Source: Lentisphaerota bacterium (GTDB taxonomy: Bacteria; Verrucomicrobiota; Lentisphaeria; Victivallales; UBA1829). From it: a stretch of DNA of 54,709 nucleotides. The DNA is taken from positions 1 through 54,709 of the forward strand of contig SUWI01000006.1 of assembly GCA_015061565.1 (NCBI GenBank), given 5' to 3'. Numbering within the stretch: the first letter of the stretch is position 1; every line of letters starts with the position of its first letter. This document shows, piece by piece, positions 19,106-24,357 of the stretch. A program made the position numbers and the translations under genes. Below the pieces are notes generated by a model. It ran no database searches, was not told where the DNA came from, and saw only the letters and a list, made by a program, of their open reading frames with translations.

Positions 19106-20560
19106 TTATTTTTTCTTCAGTTCCATGCCAAGTGCAGTGCGGAAACGGTTCTCTGCATCCAATTCCATTTTTTCAATTATTAGTGCGTCTTTATAAGAGA
19201 AGAAATTACCGGTCGATATGGAAAAACTTTCTGATTTGCAGACAAAAATCTGGTTGGTGTCCGCGTTGTTTCTACCAATTTTCTCGGCAATGTCGTGAAC
19301 CCTTTTTGCAATCTCCATCCCTCTGCAAAGCAGAATTCTCTTGTTGGCAAGAGCGTATGCAACCATCTTCACCCAAAACAAAAAATGCGATTTCGAATGG
19401 ATCCATGGCTTAATAGTATTGCCGTCAAAACTTTTGGAATGGTATGGAAACGACTCCAGGACAAAGAAATTGCTCAGATTTTTTGTCGTGTTCCCGCATA
19501 TATTTCTCTTTACTAGATACTCATACCACCACTCGTAAGAGCCAAGAGGCTTGCGTCCGTCGTGTTGATTGACTGTCCGGAAATTTTTATCCAGTACATA
19601 AAACCGGGGGACATCAAATTTCTGCCCGGCTTGGGGAAACTCAAATGAATACTGCGCTTCGAGCAACTCAATGCGGTTACTGAAATGGCCTTTATTAAAG
19701 ACAACATTCGGGGTCAGGTTTATACCTTTTTGTTCGTCTGCTAAGTCAAAAATATCAACTGTGCTGTATGACGGATTCATCAGAAGCAGCCAGATATCAG
19801 CATTAGGATCTCCGATATAGGGCTGTGGCAAAACATTACTCCGAATACTCAGTTTTTTTTCACCAATGTAGCTCTTCACGTCCGTATAATCGGCTTTAAG
19901 AATATATGTATCTTCCTGATAATCATGATTTTTCCAAGGCGTATACTCTTTCCAGAATTCTTTGGTCTTGTCATCGTGGCTCGACTCGTTAATCTCTTTC
20001 AGGACCTCCTGAACCTGACTCCACACCATATTCAGCGCATCGTCAAACGATAGTTGTTGTTTGCCGTTATTATTCGGGGCTTTGTTTTCGTCGGCATTTT
20101 CAGATGCTGCGGCTTTCGAAACACACACCGGAGGAGTGATTCCCGCTTGCTGTCTTTTTCTGAATGGGTCTTTACAATCTGAGGGATACCAATGCTGGGA
20201 ACACAACTGCTGTATCAACTCCGACAAATTGCCATTAATTGTTTGTATAGGTTGCTGCCCGAGTTCCGAATAGGAGATATCGCACTGAATCGCCTTAGTG
20301 TATTGATGGAAATCGTTCCAACCCATAAATACTATATTGACAATATTCTGTTTTATAGTCAAATGAAATTGCAAGACTCCACCATATCTTTTTATGAGTT
20401 TTTTCGTTGATTCGAAAGCGTAAAAAATAATCGTGTTTTGTTGCTTGTAACTCTTAACCTGATTATGAAGATCGGAGTTGTAGATCAAATTTTTCAGAGT
20501 TTGCATCTCTGGATTGTCGTGATTGTTGAATACAACTTGTTCTGGCTCTTGTTCAGGCAT
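19106..20560 (-). CDS. Uncharacterised protein, possible uracil-DNA-glycosylase-like fold
   Basis: The 484-residue protein is visibly AT-richer than most genes here and rich in Asn, Lys and Gln, suggesting acquisition from elsewhere. An N-terminal domain (about 1-125) is followed by a low-complexity linker (about 135-170). A C-terminal domain contains 'GDPNADIWLLLMNPSYS' (250-266) and 'VLESFPYHSKSF' (367-378), then 'RILLCRG' (408-414). The order strand-MNPS, then a Pro-Tyr-His loop, then a strand with a glycine recalls the uracil-DNA-glycosylase-like superfamily, but this is a weak visual match. No signal peptide or membrane segment. Start: AAGGAGG before ATG 20560. The gene stands alone; about 80 bp separate it from the next stop codon. 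Confidence 0.6.
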   Translation of the reverse strand: MPEQEPEQVVFNNHDNPEMQTLKNLIYNSDLHNQVKSYKQQNTIIFYAFESTKKLIKRYGGVLQFHLTIKQNIVNIVFMGWNDFHQYTKAIQCDISYSELGQQPIQTINGNLSELIQQLCSQHWYPSDCKDPFRKRQQAGITPPVCVSKAAASENADENKAPNNNGKQQLSFDDALNMVWSQVQEVLKEINESSHDDKTKEFWKEYTPWKNHDYQEDTYILKADYTDVKSYIGEKKLSIRSNVLPQPYIGDPNADIWLLLMNPSYSTVDIFDLADEQKGINLTPNVVFNKGHFSNRIELLEAQYSFEFPQAGQKFDVPRFYVLDKNFRTVNQHDGRKPLGSYEWWYEYLVKRNICGNTTKNLSNFFVLESFPYHSKSFDGNTIKPWIHSKSHFLFWVKMVAYALANKRILLCRGMEIAKRVHDIAEKIGRNNADTNQIFVCKSESFSISTGNFFSYKDALIIEKMELDAENRFRTALGMELKKK

Positions 20561-20640: not shown

Positions 20641-21216
20641 TTACCTTTTGATGATCTCTCCTTTGTAATTTTTGAACAGCTCTTTCTGTTCTTCTGACGT
20701 GTTGTATACGGAAAGGATCCGGCGGCGCAGGGCGGACGGCATGGGGTCGTGCAGTTTCACCTTGTTGCACAACAGGATCCGGCGGCAATCCATCAGTTTT
20801 TCCGCAGTTTCGCGGTCCAGTTTCCCGTCGATCACGATGCCGGTTTTCTCTTCGTCTTCGATGGTCAGAAAAACCGGATCGATGGAGTCGTAACGGATAT
20901 GATGAAGACCGATCTTCACCCCGTAGAGATCGACTTCGGTCGGGGGGAAACAGTAGATCAGCGGCAAATCACGCAGCCTCATTTTACACTGAGTGATGAA
21001 GCTCGCCAGGATCGGGATATGATGCCTTTGTGCAAAAAGCGCCGCATTCCGGGACCGGTCAAGATGTTCCGAGGTCAGGATCAGTGCGGTCAGCGGATGT
21101 TCCGGCTGCAGATACGCCTTTTCCATCTCCTTCAGCGAACCGCCGCCGTTGATTGCGAAATTTTCTTTGGCGGTTTCGACCAGGACTCCGCCGAATGAAT
21201 TTATTGTGATGTTCAT
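20641..21216 (-). CDS. Degenerate metallo-beta-lactamase-fold protein (YycJ/WalJ-like, ligands lost)
   Basis: This 191-residue protein aligns by eye with the YycJ-type metallo-beta-lactamase fold: start 'TINSFGGVLVET', then 'ALILTSEHLDRSRNAALFA' (44-62) where active proteins have T-H-x-H-x-D-H, and 'HHIRYDSIDP' (105-114) where a SxSHDxxDP-like block is usual. The first and last histidines of the metal motif are S49 and R54, and a later histidine is Y109; only H51 and D53 remain. It is therefore probably catalytically dead, perhaps a binding or regulatory protein. ATG 21216 has a strong AGGAGG site; the open frame to 21243 overlaps the upstream small gene. It is third in a minus-strand operon behind two small membrane proteins. 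Confidence 0.7.
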   Translation of the reverse strand: MNITINSFGGVLVETAKENFAINGGGSLKEMEKAYLQPEHPLTALILTSEHLDRSRNAALFAQRHHIPILASFITQCKMRLRDLPLIYCFPPTEVDLYGVKIGLHHIRYDSIDPVFLTIEDEEKTGIVIDGKLDRETAEKLMDCRRILLCNKVKLHDPMPSALRRRILSVYNTSEEQKELFKNYKGEIIKR

Positions 21217-21229
21217 TTCAGGTACCTCC

Positions 21230-21394
21230 TTATTTTCGCGCACAGTAGATAAAGAACATGATGAGCATGAATATCAGCACCGGACTGACGACATACTTCA
21301 GCACGCCGATAACGACCTTTCCGATCATCTCCAGCAGATTTGCGCAGACGCACAGAAGGCCGAGGGCCGCACAGGCGACAATAAAAATTCCCAT
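21230..21394 (-). CDS. Small membrane protein (54 aa)
   Basis: The 54-residue product consists of two hydrophobic stretches (about 3-20 and 32-50) joined by a short 'LLEMIGKVV' loop. AAGGAG precedes ATG 21394 at good spacing. It lies 13 bp upstream of the degenerate MBL-fold gene and 16 bp downstream of another small membrane protein, so the three form an operon. No family is recognised. Its size and topology would fit a membrane-protein adaptor, a holin-like or toxin-like peptide, or a stress-induced small protein; the sequence does not decide. Confidence 0.6.
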   Translation of the reverse strand: MGIFIVACAALGLLCVCANLLEMIGKVVIGVLKYVVSPVLIFMLIMFFIYCARK

Positions 21395-21410: not shown

Positions 21411-21596
21411 TCATATTTTAAAGAAAAGACGAAGCATCTGGAATCCGTAGCATACCAGCGCCAGGAAGACAAGAATGGCCAGGATGACGGCGCCGATGGA
21501 CAGAACGCCCAGGATCAGCGGCGTGATCTGAGGATTTTGACTCCAAAAGTACAGGCCCACGCCGGCCAGCGTGAGAAATCCGATGAATTTGTTCAT
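21411..21596 (-). CDS. Small membrane protein (61 aa)
   Basis: A 61-residue protein with two predicted membrane helices: 'FIGFLTLAGVGLYFW' (about 4-18) and 'LILGVLSIGAVILAILVFLAL' shortened here to its core (about 28-50), ending in a basic-aromatic tail 'MLRLFFKI'. GGAGGCAGT precedes ATG 21596; the longer open frame upstream lies in promoter sequence. It is the first gene of the operon 21596-20641 and starts 52 nt from the atypical promoter at 21648-21676. Function unknown. Confidence 0.6.
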   Translation of the reverse strand: MNKFIGFLTLAGVGLYFWSQNPQITPLILGVLSIGAVILAILVFLALVCYGFQMLRLFFKI

Positions 21597-21647
21597 GATA
21601 CTGCCTCCATTTGTTCGAGTTGAAAGATTACAATGCCCCCCAAAATC

Positions 21648-21676
21648 AAAGTAACAATTTCCCTTTAAAAGTAAAC
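21648..21676 (-). promoter_or_regulatory. Atypical promoter of the small-membrane-protein operon
   Basis: On the minus strand GTTTACT (21670-21676), 14 bp, then GTTACTTT (21648-21655). The element matches three others in this region (21684-21712, 23674-23702, 23812-23840) in both halves and in spacing. It differs from the TTGnnn/TATATT promoters elsewhere in the window. Confidence 0.5.
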
Positions 21677-21693
21677 TTTCCGAGTTTACTTTT
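21667..21693. promoter_or_regulatory. Perfect 11-bp inverted repeat in divergent promoter region
   Basis: AAAAGTAAACT (21667-21677), a 5-nt centre and AGTTTACTTTT (21683-21693). Each arm contains the GTTTACT element of one of the two divergent promoters. It could be an operator that controls both directions at once. It lies 5' of both genes, so a terminator role is less likely. Confidence 0.6.
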
Positions 21694-21712
21694 TTCATCA
21701 ATAAGTTATTCT
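21684..21712 (+). promoter_or_regulatory. Atypical promoter of the SprT-like protease gene
   Basis: GTTTACT (21684-21690), 14 bp, then GTTATTCT (21705-21712), 45 nt before ATG 21758. Both halves are identical to the element upstream of the helical-repeat gene (23674-23702, minus strand). Confidence 0.5.
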
Positions 21713-21757
21713 CCAAACACCAAACTATAAACAATCAAATATGAAAGTGAGGTCAAT

Positions 21758-22366
21758 ATGGAGGCAGATAACAGGATCGTCCGCCATGCGGAAGATATTG
21801 CAGCCGAAGTGTGGCGGAAGATGGGACGCAGCAATCTGGCCGATCCGGAAAAATTGGGAACCGTACCGCACGTTCGGATCAAGCGTCTGGACGGCGGGTT
21901 GAACGGGCTGGCGTGGCCCGACCGCATCGAACTGAATATCGACCGGCTGGAGGATTCCGATGAGGAAACCTTTCTGCAGGAAGTGATCCGTCATGAACTT
22001 GCGCATGTGGCGGAATACCGATTGACGGGGATCATGGGACATGGTCCGCTGTGGCATGCGCTTTGCCGGTCGGCCGGCGGGAAAGCAAACTGGTGCGATT
22101 CCTTCGACGATCCGTTTGCCGGAGCCGATTCGGGGCTGATCATGTTCCCTGCCGTTTTGGAATCCTCGATCCTTTTCAGCTGGGGGATCAGTGTCCTGCA
22201 TGTCCCCTTGTGGTGTGCGATCGCTGCCGGGATCGCGGGATTCTTTTTCCCGCCGGTCTGTTGGGCGGCCTTCTGCAGGACTGAAAAATCACTGCATTTT
22301 ACCGCCATGGTTTTCACCTTCATTGAGACGATACTCCTGCTGGCATTGCTGTGCTGGAAACTCTGA
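21758..22366 (+). CDS. SprT-like zinc metalloprotease with C-terminal membrane helices
   Basis: The 202-residue protein has an N-terminal SprT-like domain (about 1-120): zinc motif 'HELAH' (79-83) with E80 as catalytic base, and the downstream 'GHGPLWHALC' (94-103), whose histidine is the usual third ligand region of SprT proteins. After the protease domain come two or three hydrophobic segments (about 127-145, 148-171 and 180-200). Typical SprT/Spartan proteins are soluble and act on DNA-protein crosslinks; a membrane tail is unusual and suggests another substrate. GAGGT precedes ATG 21758. It is divergent from the small-membrane-protein operon across a shared regulatory repeat. Confidence 0.75.
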   Translation: MEADNRIVRHAEDIAAEVWRKMGRSNLADPEKLGTVPHVRIKRLDGGLNGLAWPDRIELNIDRLEDSDEETFLQEVIRHELAHVAEYRLTGIMGHGPLWHALCRSAGGKANWCDSFDDPFAGADSGLIMFPAVLESSILFSWGISVLHVPLWCAIAAGIAGFFFPPVCWAAFCRTEKSLHFTAMVFTFIETILLLALLCWKL

Positions 22367-22401
22367 TTTTTCCCCCGGTCCGCATCCCGTTCCGCTCCGG
22401 C

Positions 22402-23481
22402 TTATTTGGTAAAATTACTGTTGAAGAGAAATTTCCGCAGTATCTCATCGGAATAAGCCTGCGCTCTCTGGTGAAAATCGGCAATGGAATCGGCATCCTG
22501 ATATGCGGTAAGCAGGGCATGGACCACCTGCCTGCGGATCCGGCGCTGCATGTTGCGGGGTATCCCGGATTTTTCGATCCGCTCATCCGCCTGAGGCAGA
22601 TGCGCCCAGATCAGCCGTCTCCGTATGTACTTCAGTCTGCCCCACAGGGTGCGGAGAGGGGGCAGCCGGTCCGTTGATTCCGGTTCGAACCAGGGACAGC
22701 TGGTTTTATTCATGATTTCCGCTTTGATGAAATCAGGCAACCTTGTTTTCTGATCGCGCAGATATTTTTTCCCGAGTTGAAACAATTGCTTTCCACTGTC
22801 GGTTTTGTGATGTTTTTTCAGCAGTTCGACGATCTGTTCGGCCTTGTCCACCGTACTTGTCCATCCGCAGACCTCATTTCTCCTGCCGGTCAGCAGCAGG
22901 TGAACCATTTCAAGGGTCCGCTCTATGAGTTTGTCCACGGCATCATCCCCATACGCATCCGGACTCGGAACGGGATTCAGTTCCGAGAAACCGGTCAGGT
23001 ATTCAAACAGATTCGTATAGCGGTAGCTGCATGCCGCTGCCAGCGCATTGCTGAGGGTATCATTACCGATTGTAAAGCCATTGGATCGATGGAGCTGGTA
23101 CAGCACACCCAGCATGTCCTCCTGGTGATTTTTCGCCGCACCGATGAAAGCCGCGTTGAACGTCTGCAAGGATTTGAATTCCCTTATGACATACTCGATG
23201 CTTTCGCGATTTCCGGATTGTGCTGCGAGATAGACACTATGGTCCAGTTCCTCCCGTTCTTCGAATGACAATTTTCCGATTTCTTCGGAATAATTGATCT
23301 GCAGTTCCTGCTGAAGATATTTCAGCAGTTCGGTAAAGTTGCAGGAAATGGCTTTCGCTGCAGTGGATGTCCAATCCTCCTTCAGATCGACCCCCAGCTC
23401 GGATGCTGTCTGCAGGACAGTTTCGAGATTTCCGGTTTCGATCGCATTTTCCATTTTTTCGTTGACGTCATCACAGAACAT
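22402..23481 (-). CDS. Helical-repeat (ankyrin-like) protein of unknown function
   Basis: The 359-residue protein is strongly helical. The first half has degenerate ankyrin-like units: 'AIETGNLETVLQTASELGVD', 'VYLAAQSGNRESIEYVIREF' and 'FIGAAKNHQEDMLGVLYQL' at roughly even spacing. The second half is Lys/Arg-rich with 'GRLKYIRRRLIWAHLPQ' and a C-terminal helical tail. No catalytic motif, signal peptide or membrane segment is visible. Ankyrin-like repeats usually bind other proteins. AAAGGAG precedes ATG 23481. The atypical promoter at 23674-23702 leaves a leader of about 190 nt. It converges on the SprT-like gene, with 35 bp between the stops. Confidence 0.6.
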   Translation of the reverse strand: MFCDDVNEKMENAIETGNLETVLQTASELGVDLKEDWTSTAAKAISCNFTELLKYLQQELQINYSEEIGKLSFEEREELDHSVYLAAQSGNRESIEYVIREFKSLQTFNAAFIGAAKNHQEDMLGVLYQLHRSNGFTIGNDTLSNALAAACSYRYTNLFEYLTGFSELNPVPSPDAYGDDAVDKLIERTLEMVHLLLTGRRNEVCGWTSTVDKAEQIVELLKKHHKTDSGKQLFQLGKKYLRDQKTRLPDFIKAEIMNKTSCPWFEPESTDRLPPLRTLWGRLKYIRRRLIWAHLPQADERIEKSGIPRNMQRRIRRQVVHALLTAYQDADSIADFHQRAQAYSDEILRKFLFNSNFTK

Positions 23482-23673
23482 GGCATTCTCCTTTGTTTTA
23501 TTGGTTTTAAGGTGATCGGATTCATTTTTTACTGACTGTTTGTGAAAACCTCCTTATCATTAAAATTTAAAAAATTGTTCCTGGACCGGGGGAAGGACGA
23601 CGATACAATTTTCCTCTTAAATTTTCAAAGAACACCAAAAAAGCAAGAGGCTTCGCCACCAACTTTTTTTGGA

Positions 23674-23702
23674 AGAATAACACATTTTCAAATTTAGTAA
23701 AC
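23674..23702 (-). promoter_or_regulatory. Atypical promoter of the helical-repeat gene
   Basis: On the minus strand GTTTACT (23696-23702), 14 bp, then GTTATTCT (23674-23681), both halves identical to the SprT-gene promoter. The following bases (CCAAA-rich) are also similar in the two. The leader to ATG 23481 is long, so a second promoter may exist. Confidence 0.45.
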
Positions 23703-23741
23703 CGTTATCGTGTAAAATCTTGCAAAAAATCATTCATCTGT

Positions 23742-23767
23742 CAGTTGTTATATTTATATAACAACTG
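23742..23767. promoter_or_regulatory. 12-bp-arm palindrome in AT-rich spacer
   Basis: CAGTTGTTATAT and ATATAACAACTG flank a 2-nt centre, a perfect 26-bp palindrome. It lies between the two divergent atypical promoters in the 408-bp spacer 23482-23889 and is a plausible operator for a dimeric regulator. The rest of the spacer is AT-rich and contains no other supported feature. Confidence 0.5.
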
Positions 23768-23811
23768 CGTCTAATAGAAAAGCGATAGGGAAACAAAAAA
23801 ATAAAAAAACA

Positions 23812-23840
23812 GTTTACCGAAAGCCGTTTTCTGTTATTAT
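23812..23840 (+). promoter_or_regulatory. Atypical promoter of the 155-aa orphan gene
   Basis: GTTTACC (23812-23818), 14 bp, then GTTATTAT (23833-23840), 49 nt before ATG 23890. It is the fourth copy of the element shared in this region. Confidence 0.5.
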
Positions 23841-23889: not shown

Positions 23890-24357
23890 ATGGACATTGC
23901 AAGACTCAGCTGCGAATTTCAGATCAACAATTTTCAGGGAGATCAGGAAAAACTGGCGGAATGGTTCGACACTTTCGGTTTTCAGGTCACCCGCCGAAAC
24001 CTTGCCGGAGAAATCGATCCGGACGGTCCGATCATAACCTACAATACCAATTCAGGAGACAATCAGTATCCCGGCGCGGATCTGACCGATCCGGCGGAAT
24101 ATGAAGATTGCGCGGCGCATGATCTGCATCCGTTCAGGAAAAATTATCCGCTGCAGACCGTTCTGGCGCAGCTGCAGCCGGCAGGGATCCCCTGTTTTCT
24201 ATATTATTCCCGGTGGGCGGAGTTCCGCGGGCGCGAGGATTACCTGGTCAAGAACTTCTACATCCACGATGGCGTCGCTGAAGAAATGCAGATGTTCTGC
24301 TTTGAAAATACCATACAGTCCTGGAACGAGCTGCTGGAGATCCTGAAGGGAAAGTGA
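23890..24357 (+). CDS. Uncharacterised 155-aa protein
   Basis: A soluble acidic protein with no recognised family. It has 'WFDTFGFQVTRRNLAGEIDP' near residues 25-44, an aromatic middle ('FLYYSRWAEFRGREDYLVKN', about 102-121) and a helical C-terminus. The ribosome site is very strong (AAGGAGG, 7 nt before ATG), and one of the shared atypical promoters lies 49 nt upstream, so high inducible expression is plausible. It ends 12 bp from the convergent polysaccharide cluster. No signal peptide, membrane segment or metal motif is evident. Confidence 0.6.
   Translation: MDIARLSCEFQINNFQGDQEKLAEWFDTFGFQVTRRNLAGEIDPDGPIITYNTNSGDNQYPGADLTDPAEYEDCAAHDLHPFRKNYPLQTVLAQLQPAGIPCFLYYSRWAEFRGREDYLVKNFYIHDGVAEEMQMFCFENTIQSWNELLEILKGK

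Follow-up and report, generated by a model that had tools for sequence, protein, structure and literature searches.

Four intergenic sites in an accessory stretch of a Lentisphaerota genome share the two-box motif GTTTACY-N14-GTTAYTHT, and the same arrangement stands before start codons in accessory islands of two further Lentisphaeria genomes, one of them of another family, and is confined to such islands. As far as can be judged from sequence, the sites appear to represent a real, conserved and island-restricted promoter class, and the best reading is that this class looks private to a family of mobile islands. We furthermore lean, if only somewhat, towards the notion that the four sites are true promoters of the island class, read by a specialised sigma or a sigma-like accessory protein. 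Promoter specificity in Lentisphaeria seems hardly described, and a full-text literature search on promoter motifs and sigma factors of the phylum found no paper. If one kind of mobile island is marked by a promoter word of its own, that word would offer a simple means of finding such islands and their cargo, and would provide a testable case of accessory genes whose co-regulating factor moves along with them.

The motif in the window

Within the window, by which we mean the whole analysed stretch of 54,709 nucleotides, the exact motif occurs four times, and the coordinates, the strands and the spacing of exactly 14 given in the preliminary description are all reproduced. W1 (GTTTACT-N14-GTTACTTT, 21648..21676, minus strand) is the candidate promoter of an operon encoding two small membrane proteins and a YycJ-like pseudo-enzyme, and has a homologous promoter with an N15 spacer at G122:C76:6752. 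W2 (GTTTACT-N14-GTTATTCT, 21684..21712, plus strand), the candidate promoter of a SprT-like gene, is divergent from W1, the two -35 boxes being 7 bp apart. W3 (GTTTACT-N14-GTTATTCT, 23674..23702, minus strand) is found 192 nt upstream of an ankyrin-like gene, and W4 (GTTTACC-N14-GTTATTAT, 23812..23840, plus strand) is the candidate promoter of a gene for a 155-aa protein. From motif end to ATG we measure 48, 45 and 49 nt at the three sites other than W3; the preliminary description gave 45-52 nt for three of the four. The centre of the W3/W4 divergent spacer is taken up by an inverted repeat with perfect 12-bp arms and a loop of 2 nt (CAGTTGTTATAT-TT-ATATAACAACTG, 23742..23767). This candidate operator was found once only in a search covering the window, both other islands and the sampled stretches.

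The W1 operon comprises a 62-aa small membrane protein (21411..21599, minus strand), which has a 61-aa homologue under the same promoter in G122, a 54-aa small membrane protein (21230..21394, minus strand) and a 191-aa YycJ/WalJ-like protein of metallo-beta-lactamase fold (20641..21216, minus strand), the sole gene found in all three islands. Aligned with the phylum's full-length YycJ/WalJ-like enzymes, the latter proves to have lost their metal ligands (THEHxDH to TSEHLDR) as well as the GHLNN motif, and is predicted to be a catalytically dead pseudo-enzyme. It has no counterpart in viral contigs and one weak match in phages; its predicted structural model was too poor for use, and a profile search found no PDB relative. 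The SprT-like metalloprotease under W2 has 202 residues, with C-terminal membrane segments (21758..22366, plus strand), the ankyrin-like repeat protein under W3 has 359 (22402..23481, minus strand), and the 155-aa protein under W4 belongs to no recognised family (23890..24357, plus strand). The neighbouring gene for a 484-aa protein (19106..20560, minus strand) has an ordinary promoter of its own, TTGAAT-N16-TATTTT; the product is weakly like the anti-phage DNA glycosylase Brig1 (about 70 residues aligned, E 3e-7, far below the cut-off), and a diverged homologue follows the W1-type operon in G122. The earlier characterisation of the other window promoters as TTGnnn-N16/17 is roughly right in view of this gene and of the 191 upstream regions, where TTGACA-N16-18-TAnnnT occurs eight times in sense and never in antisense orientation. 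The whole stretch from 19.1 to 24.4 kb is a lower-GC patch, most of its kilobases having about 40-50% GC and most of the remainder 53-63%, and no recombinase was recognised adjoining it.

The genome-wide search that had been proposed was run on all 5.45 Mb as a pattern search and returned the same four exact sites, all in the accessory stretch, and none elsewhere. Allowing one mismatch adds two sites, both within coding sequence, and a reversed-pattern control likewise gives six matches. No fifth site occurs in the window at up to two mismatches, and dinucleotide shuffles of the window contain a mean of 0.22 sites and never reach four. All four GTTTACs found outside the open reading frames of the window are motif sites with GTTA 15 nt on, so that the absence of any other intergenic GTTTAC is confirmed, and none of the 14 GTTTACs inside the reading frames has GTTA at +15. 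The reduced core GTTTAC-N15-GTTA has seven matches genome-wide, namely the four window sites, one intergenic site on contig C38 and two in coding sequence. It should be mentioned that these own-genome statistics are based on pattern searches and about 435 kb of retrieved stretches, from a genome that is 86% complete. Since the motif was read off the data, we carried out a look-elsewhere test by shuffling, in which any 6+4 gapped word with a gap of 8-21 was allowed to reach four copies in shuffled intergenic DNA; this happened twice in 300 shuffles when the accessory intergenic DNA was used and three times in 200 for all intergenic DNA of the window, and the window-only significance is therefore about p=0.01. 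The reality of the motif is settled by its conservation in other genomes and not by window statistics. Duplication of one promoter within the window is ruled out, the spacers and flanks being unrelated.

Recurrence in other islands

Relatives of the 191-aa protein are found in G122, a goat-rumen Lentisphaeria genome of a family other than that of the window (contig C76, JAFSTC010000104.1; 78% identity, and a second, frameshifted copy), and in G314 (L053/G314), from water-buffalo rumen (Lentisphaeria; contig C62, JAFZZR010000011.1; about 55%). DNA similarity between G122 and the window spans the operon and ends just past the W1 -35 box, and the G122 operon promoter reads GTTTACT-N15-GTTATTTT (in full GTTTACTTTTGAAGGGGGATTTGTTATTTT), with a spacer one base longer than in W1. 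The frameshifted paralogue is preceded by GTTTACT-N14-GTTATTTT with an unrelated spacer. In G314 the promoter of the YycJ-like gene is GTTTACT-N14-GTTATAGG, a divergent GTTTACT-N14-GTTACTGT lies 31 bp from it, and a repeat-protein gene and a 338-aa gene have GTTTACA-N14-GTTATTGA and GTTTACA-N14-GTTACTTT upstream, respectively. The looser pattern GTTTAC-N14..16-GTTA has three matches in G122, all on contig C76 and one of them within an ORF, and five in G314 (3.7 Mb), all on contig C62, four being intergenic with N14 and one within an ORF. A position weight matrix built from ten sites scores the four window sites at 22-28, the next-best score in the window being 11.8, and it furthermore retrieves an eleventh site that was not part of the training set, CTTTACT-N14-GTTACTTT at G122:C76:22169, 25 nt before an ATG.

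Across a sample of 388 genomes from the phylum, the window's own is alone in having such a cluster, other matches being mostly lone and never clustered. A wider pattern gave only scattered matches beyond the known sites in 137 genomes of the order, the divergent-pair pattern has no match in viral contigs, and Rfam gave no match above threshold. Conservation by descent across the family was considered and rejected, as 35 other family genomes are without a true site and the sole match (L007) falls at the 3' end of miaA. The SprT-like and 155-aa proteins also have homologues encoded outside the islands (in G012, G017, G035 and G061), and there the genes are without the motif, which thus follows the island rather than the gene. 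The preliminary description held that a shared signal ties unrelated genes into one regulon; the shared signal stands, restricted here to the accessory stretch and clustering in the accessory islands of two other genomes, but a dispersed, genome-wide sigma regulon is ruled out by there being only four exact sites, and the regulon seems to belong to mobile islands instead.

Both of these contigs show signs of mobile accessory DNA, C76 of G122 encoding a tyrosine integrase, an AbiEii toxin and an ADP-ribosylglycohydrolase, and C62 of G314 a serine-recombinase fragment, an ATP-dependent DNA ligase, a DUF932-like protein and an SF2 helicase. The single intergenic core site of the window's own genome outside the window (C38:34673) likewise lies among HipA-type toxin genes and a recombinase fragment, as read by eye from translations. 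In two families (L016, which is G012:C75, and L063:6384-8526) a DUF932-like gene directly precedes or is paired with one for an SF2 helicase, in that order, and in G012 the pair is directly 3' of a SprT-like gene with C-terminal membrane segments like those of the window's. As a separate observation, repeated GCGTTTA...CTGACAA-type units at a contig end (L107, G000:C9, 10200-10341), perhaps a transposon end, give a spurious GTTTAC...GTTA match with N12.

Anatomy of the shared motif

The 11 sites are mostly upstream of unrelated genes. Throughout, GTTTAC and GTTA are fixed but for one first base, and GTTA is followed by Y, then by T in all but one site and, in most, by T two bases on. The -35 box is GTTTAC in 10 of the 11 and CTTTAC in the remaining one, and the spacer before NGTTAY is N14 in ten and N15 in one. 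For some sites this invariance is overstated, because the search patterns required the core, but the consensus also holds at the four YycJ-like promoters, which were reached through protein homology. The motif ends 45-54 nt before the start codon at seven sites, 25 nt at one and 37 nt at one, the last preceding a gene remnant, an arrangement typical of promoters with short leaders. Written in sigma70 style, the same letters become TTTACT-N16-TAYTNT after TGn, with a hexamer spacer of 16 (17 once), in which the T-A of the -10 hexamer and the G of TG are invariant and the final T is present in most. TGn precedes TAnnnT in most sites, the -35 box being TTTACT and not TTGACA, and the motif is missing genome-wide outside the islands.

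At the two remaining sites, 192-220 nt from the start codon, the leader contains a boxA-like element. That of the window (GTGTTCTTTGAAAATT, 23618..23635, minus strand) lies in the predicted W3 transcript and is common to the leader of the non-homologous G314 repeat-protein gene. The boxA-like TGTTCTTTGAAAATT is thus seen in the window and, in G314, at L063:2055-2072 (plus strand), and further at 9527 in L136 (G000:C38, minus strand) and at 3862 in L114 (G000:C16, minus strand). The leaders concerned are long, the element standing some 100-190 nt ahead of repeat-protein genes that are unrelated to one another and are of ankyrin (window, C38) and pentapeptide type (C16) or encode a QPQFADKC repeat protein (G314). 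By its resemblance to rRNA leaders TGTTCTTTGAAAATT is a putative NusB/NusE antitermination signal, and the element may possibly define a leader class for repeat proteins in Lentisphaeria.

Interpretation of the motif

On the reading we lean towards, the four sites would be true promoters, belonging to a class that a family of horizontally moving Lentisphaeria islands with accessory (defence/DNA-maintenance) genes employs. Its elements would be the -35 box GTTTAC(T), the -10 box GTTAY(T)NT and, between them, 14 nt (15 in one case). A specialised sigma or sigma-like accessory protein would, together with the host RNA polymerase, recognise the sites as a group, and otherwise unrelated island genes would then be transcribed together under one condition. 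Two points here are inferred, namely the role of the motif as a promoter and not merely an operator, and its reading by a dedicated sigma or sigma-like protein. In favour of the alternative sigma factor, one of the two possible readers put forward in the preliminary description beside an activator, are the fixed distance to start codons, the natural N15 variant, the SigB-type GTTTAC/N14 geometry and a sigma-region-2 protein in one island. A bolder version, which we regard as rather unlikely, is that the islands bring their own transcription programme, a reduced and possibly split sigma, with region 2 in one small protein, steering the host RNA polymerase to GTTTAC-N14-GTTAYT promoters before each cargo gene, such that cargo acquired piecemeal would join the regulon.

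It is possible, though we would not expect it, that the sites are instead housekeeping or group-2 sigma70 promoters, in which a poor -35 box (TTTACT) is offset by an extended -10 (TGnTAYTNT), and that the genes stem from a common ancestral element. This notion is in agreement with the invariant T-A and G, the frequent final T and the hexamer spacing described above, with the scoring of W4 as sigma70-like with a TG extension, and with the presence of RpoD and another full-length sigma70 in each of the three genomes. A motif that the general sigma reads well would be expected to turn up among thousands of ordinary promoters, yet outside the islands its core has a single intergenic match in the window's own genome and none in G122 and G314; unrelated genes with dissimilar spacers furthermore keep the G at -36, the T for G in TTGAC and the GTT before the -10. 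Plain sigma70 recognition is disfavoured because the remainder of the three genomes lacks the motif.

The boxes have GTT in common and start 21 bp apart, and the W1/W2 pair forms a 10-bp inverted repeat (AAAAGTAAAC-N7-GTTTACTTTT), which could suggest a DNA-binding activator or repressor that occupies the two boxes, reading them as a loose direct repeat (GTTTAC ... GTTAYT) spaced by about two helical turns, and overlaps the promoter. We consider this doubtful, since the boxes sit at the expected -35 and -10 places, an alternative TTG-N15-18-TAnnnT promoter is found in only one of the four regions (that of the W3 gene), and no common regulator gene was found across the three islands. The first proposal of a direct repeat two helical turns apart, taken as an exact distance, is disfavoured by the merely loose likeness of the boxes and by the conserved copy in G122, where the spacer is 15 and the box-to-box distance 22. 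A chance resemblance of AT-rich spacers, picked by eye, is most improbable: the window-only look-elsewhere probability is just about 0.01, but the motif recurs independently before the homologous operon and before other island genes in two further genomes, and these cross-genome clusters refute chance for practical purposes.

A sigma-like protein in one island

The factor proposed on the favoured, sigma-based reading has a candidate in the G314 island only, a 123-aa protein with sigma-70 region 2 only (G314:C62 (L063):1564-1935, plus strand), which is a candidate rather than an established cognate factor. Its residues 4-71 resemble sigma-70 region 2, with matches to 19 sigma models in NCBIfam (best SigB/SigF/SigG, E=1.6e-4); its PDB sequence matches are sigma factors except for one weak last match, and sigma factors are likewise the best structure matches of a weak single-sequence model (pLDDT 60). 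The gene, which diverges from that for the YycJ-like protein, is preceded by a motif promoter and by a broken relative of the 238-aa gene found in G122. No region 4 is recognisable in the protein, which therefore could not read the conserved -35 box alone, and none was matched among the G314 island proteins scanned, several of which belong to no family. As it has no homologue at E<=1 in the window's genome (86% complete) and none on the G122 contig, it is a candidate for one island only; viral contigs gave short region-2 matches only. Of sigma factors at large, no SigB/F/G type (TIGR02980) was found over the cut-off in G314, G122 or G000 (the window's own genome, 86% complete), but only RpoD-like and other types.

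Comparison with known promoter and sigma systems

The extended -10 sigma70 arrangement, TGnTAnnnT with a 16-17 nt spacer to a TTGAC-like box, can also be read in the island motif, but the latter keeps a G before and a T within the -35 box, and it is absent elsewhere in the genomes. Phage T4 gp55 is a reduced sigma for late promoters that steers RNA polymerase to the element's own promoters, which consist of a -10 only. It is a mobile element's reduced sigma, as proposed for the island, although the island motif keeps the -35-like box that T4 lacks. The small RsoA of the two-subunit sigma SigO-RsoA consists of sigma region 2 only (PMC8103513), and the G314 123-aa protein is like it in domain content; SigO-RsoA however has two subunits, whereas no region-4 partner was found among the G314 island proteins scanned and no homologue of the small protein in the window's genome. 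SigB promoters read GTTTAA-N14-GGGTAT, and rrnEp2 of S. coelicolor reads GTTTAC-N14-GGGCAC (PMC9847131, PMC8346170). The island motif is like this group 3 type in the -35 core GTTTA, in the optimal N14 spacer (13-15 tolerated) and in the A at the same -10 position, and a GTTTAC -35 box indeed occurs among such promoters, in rrnEp2; by the measures of that type its -35 box is GTTTAA-like and its spacer falls within 14 +/-2. The SigB-type -10, GGGTAT, is however not matched by NGTTAY, nor is its GG, and the SigB regulon is a dispersed stress regulon, whereas the regulon of the motif described here is an island.
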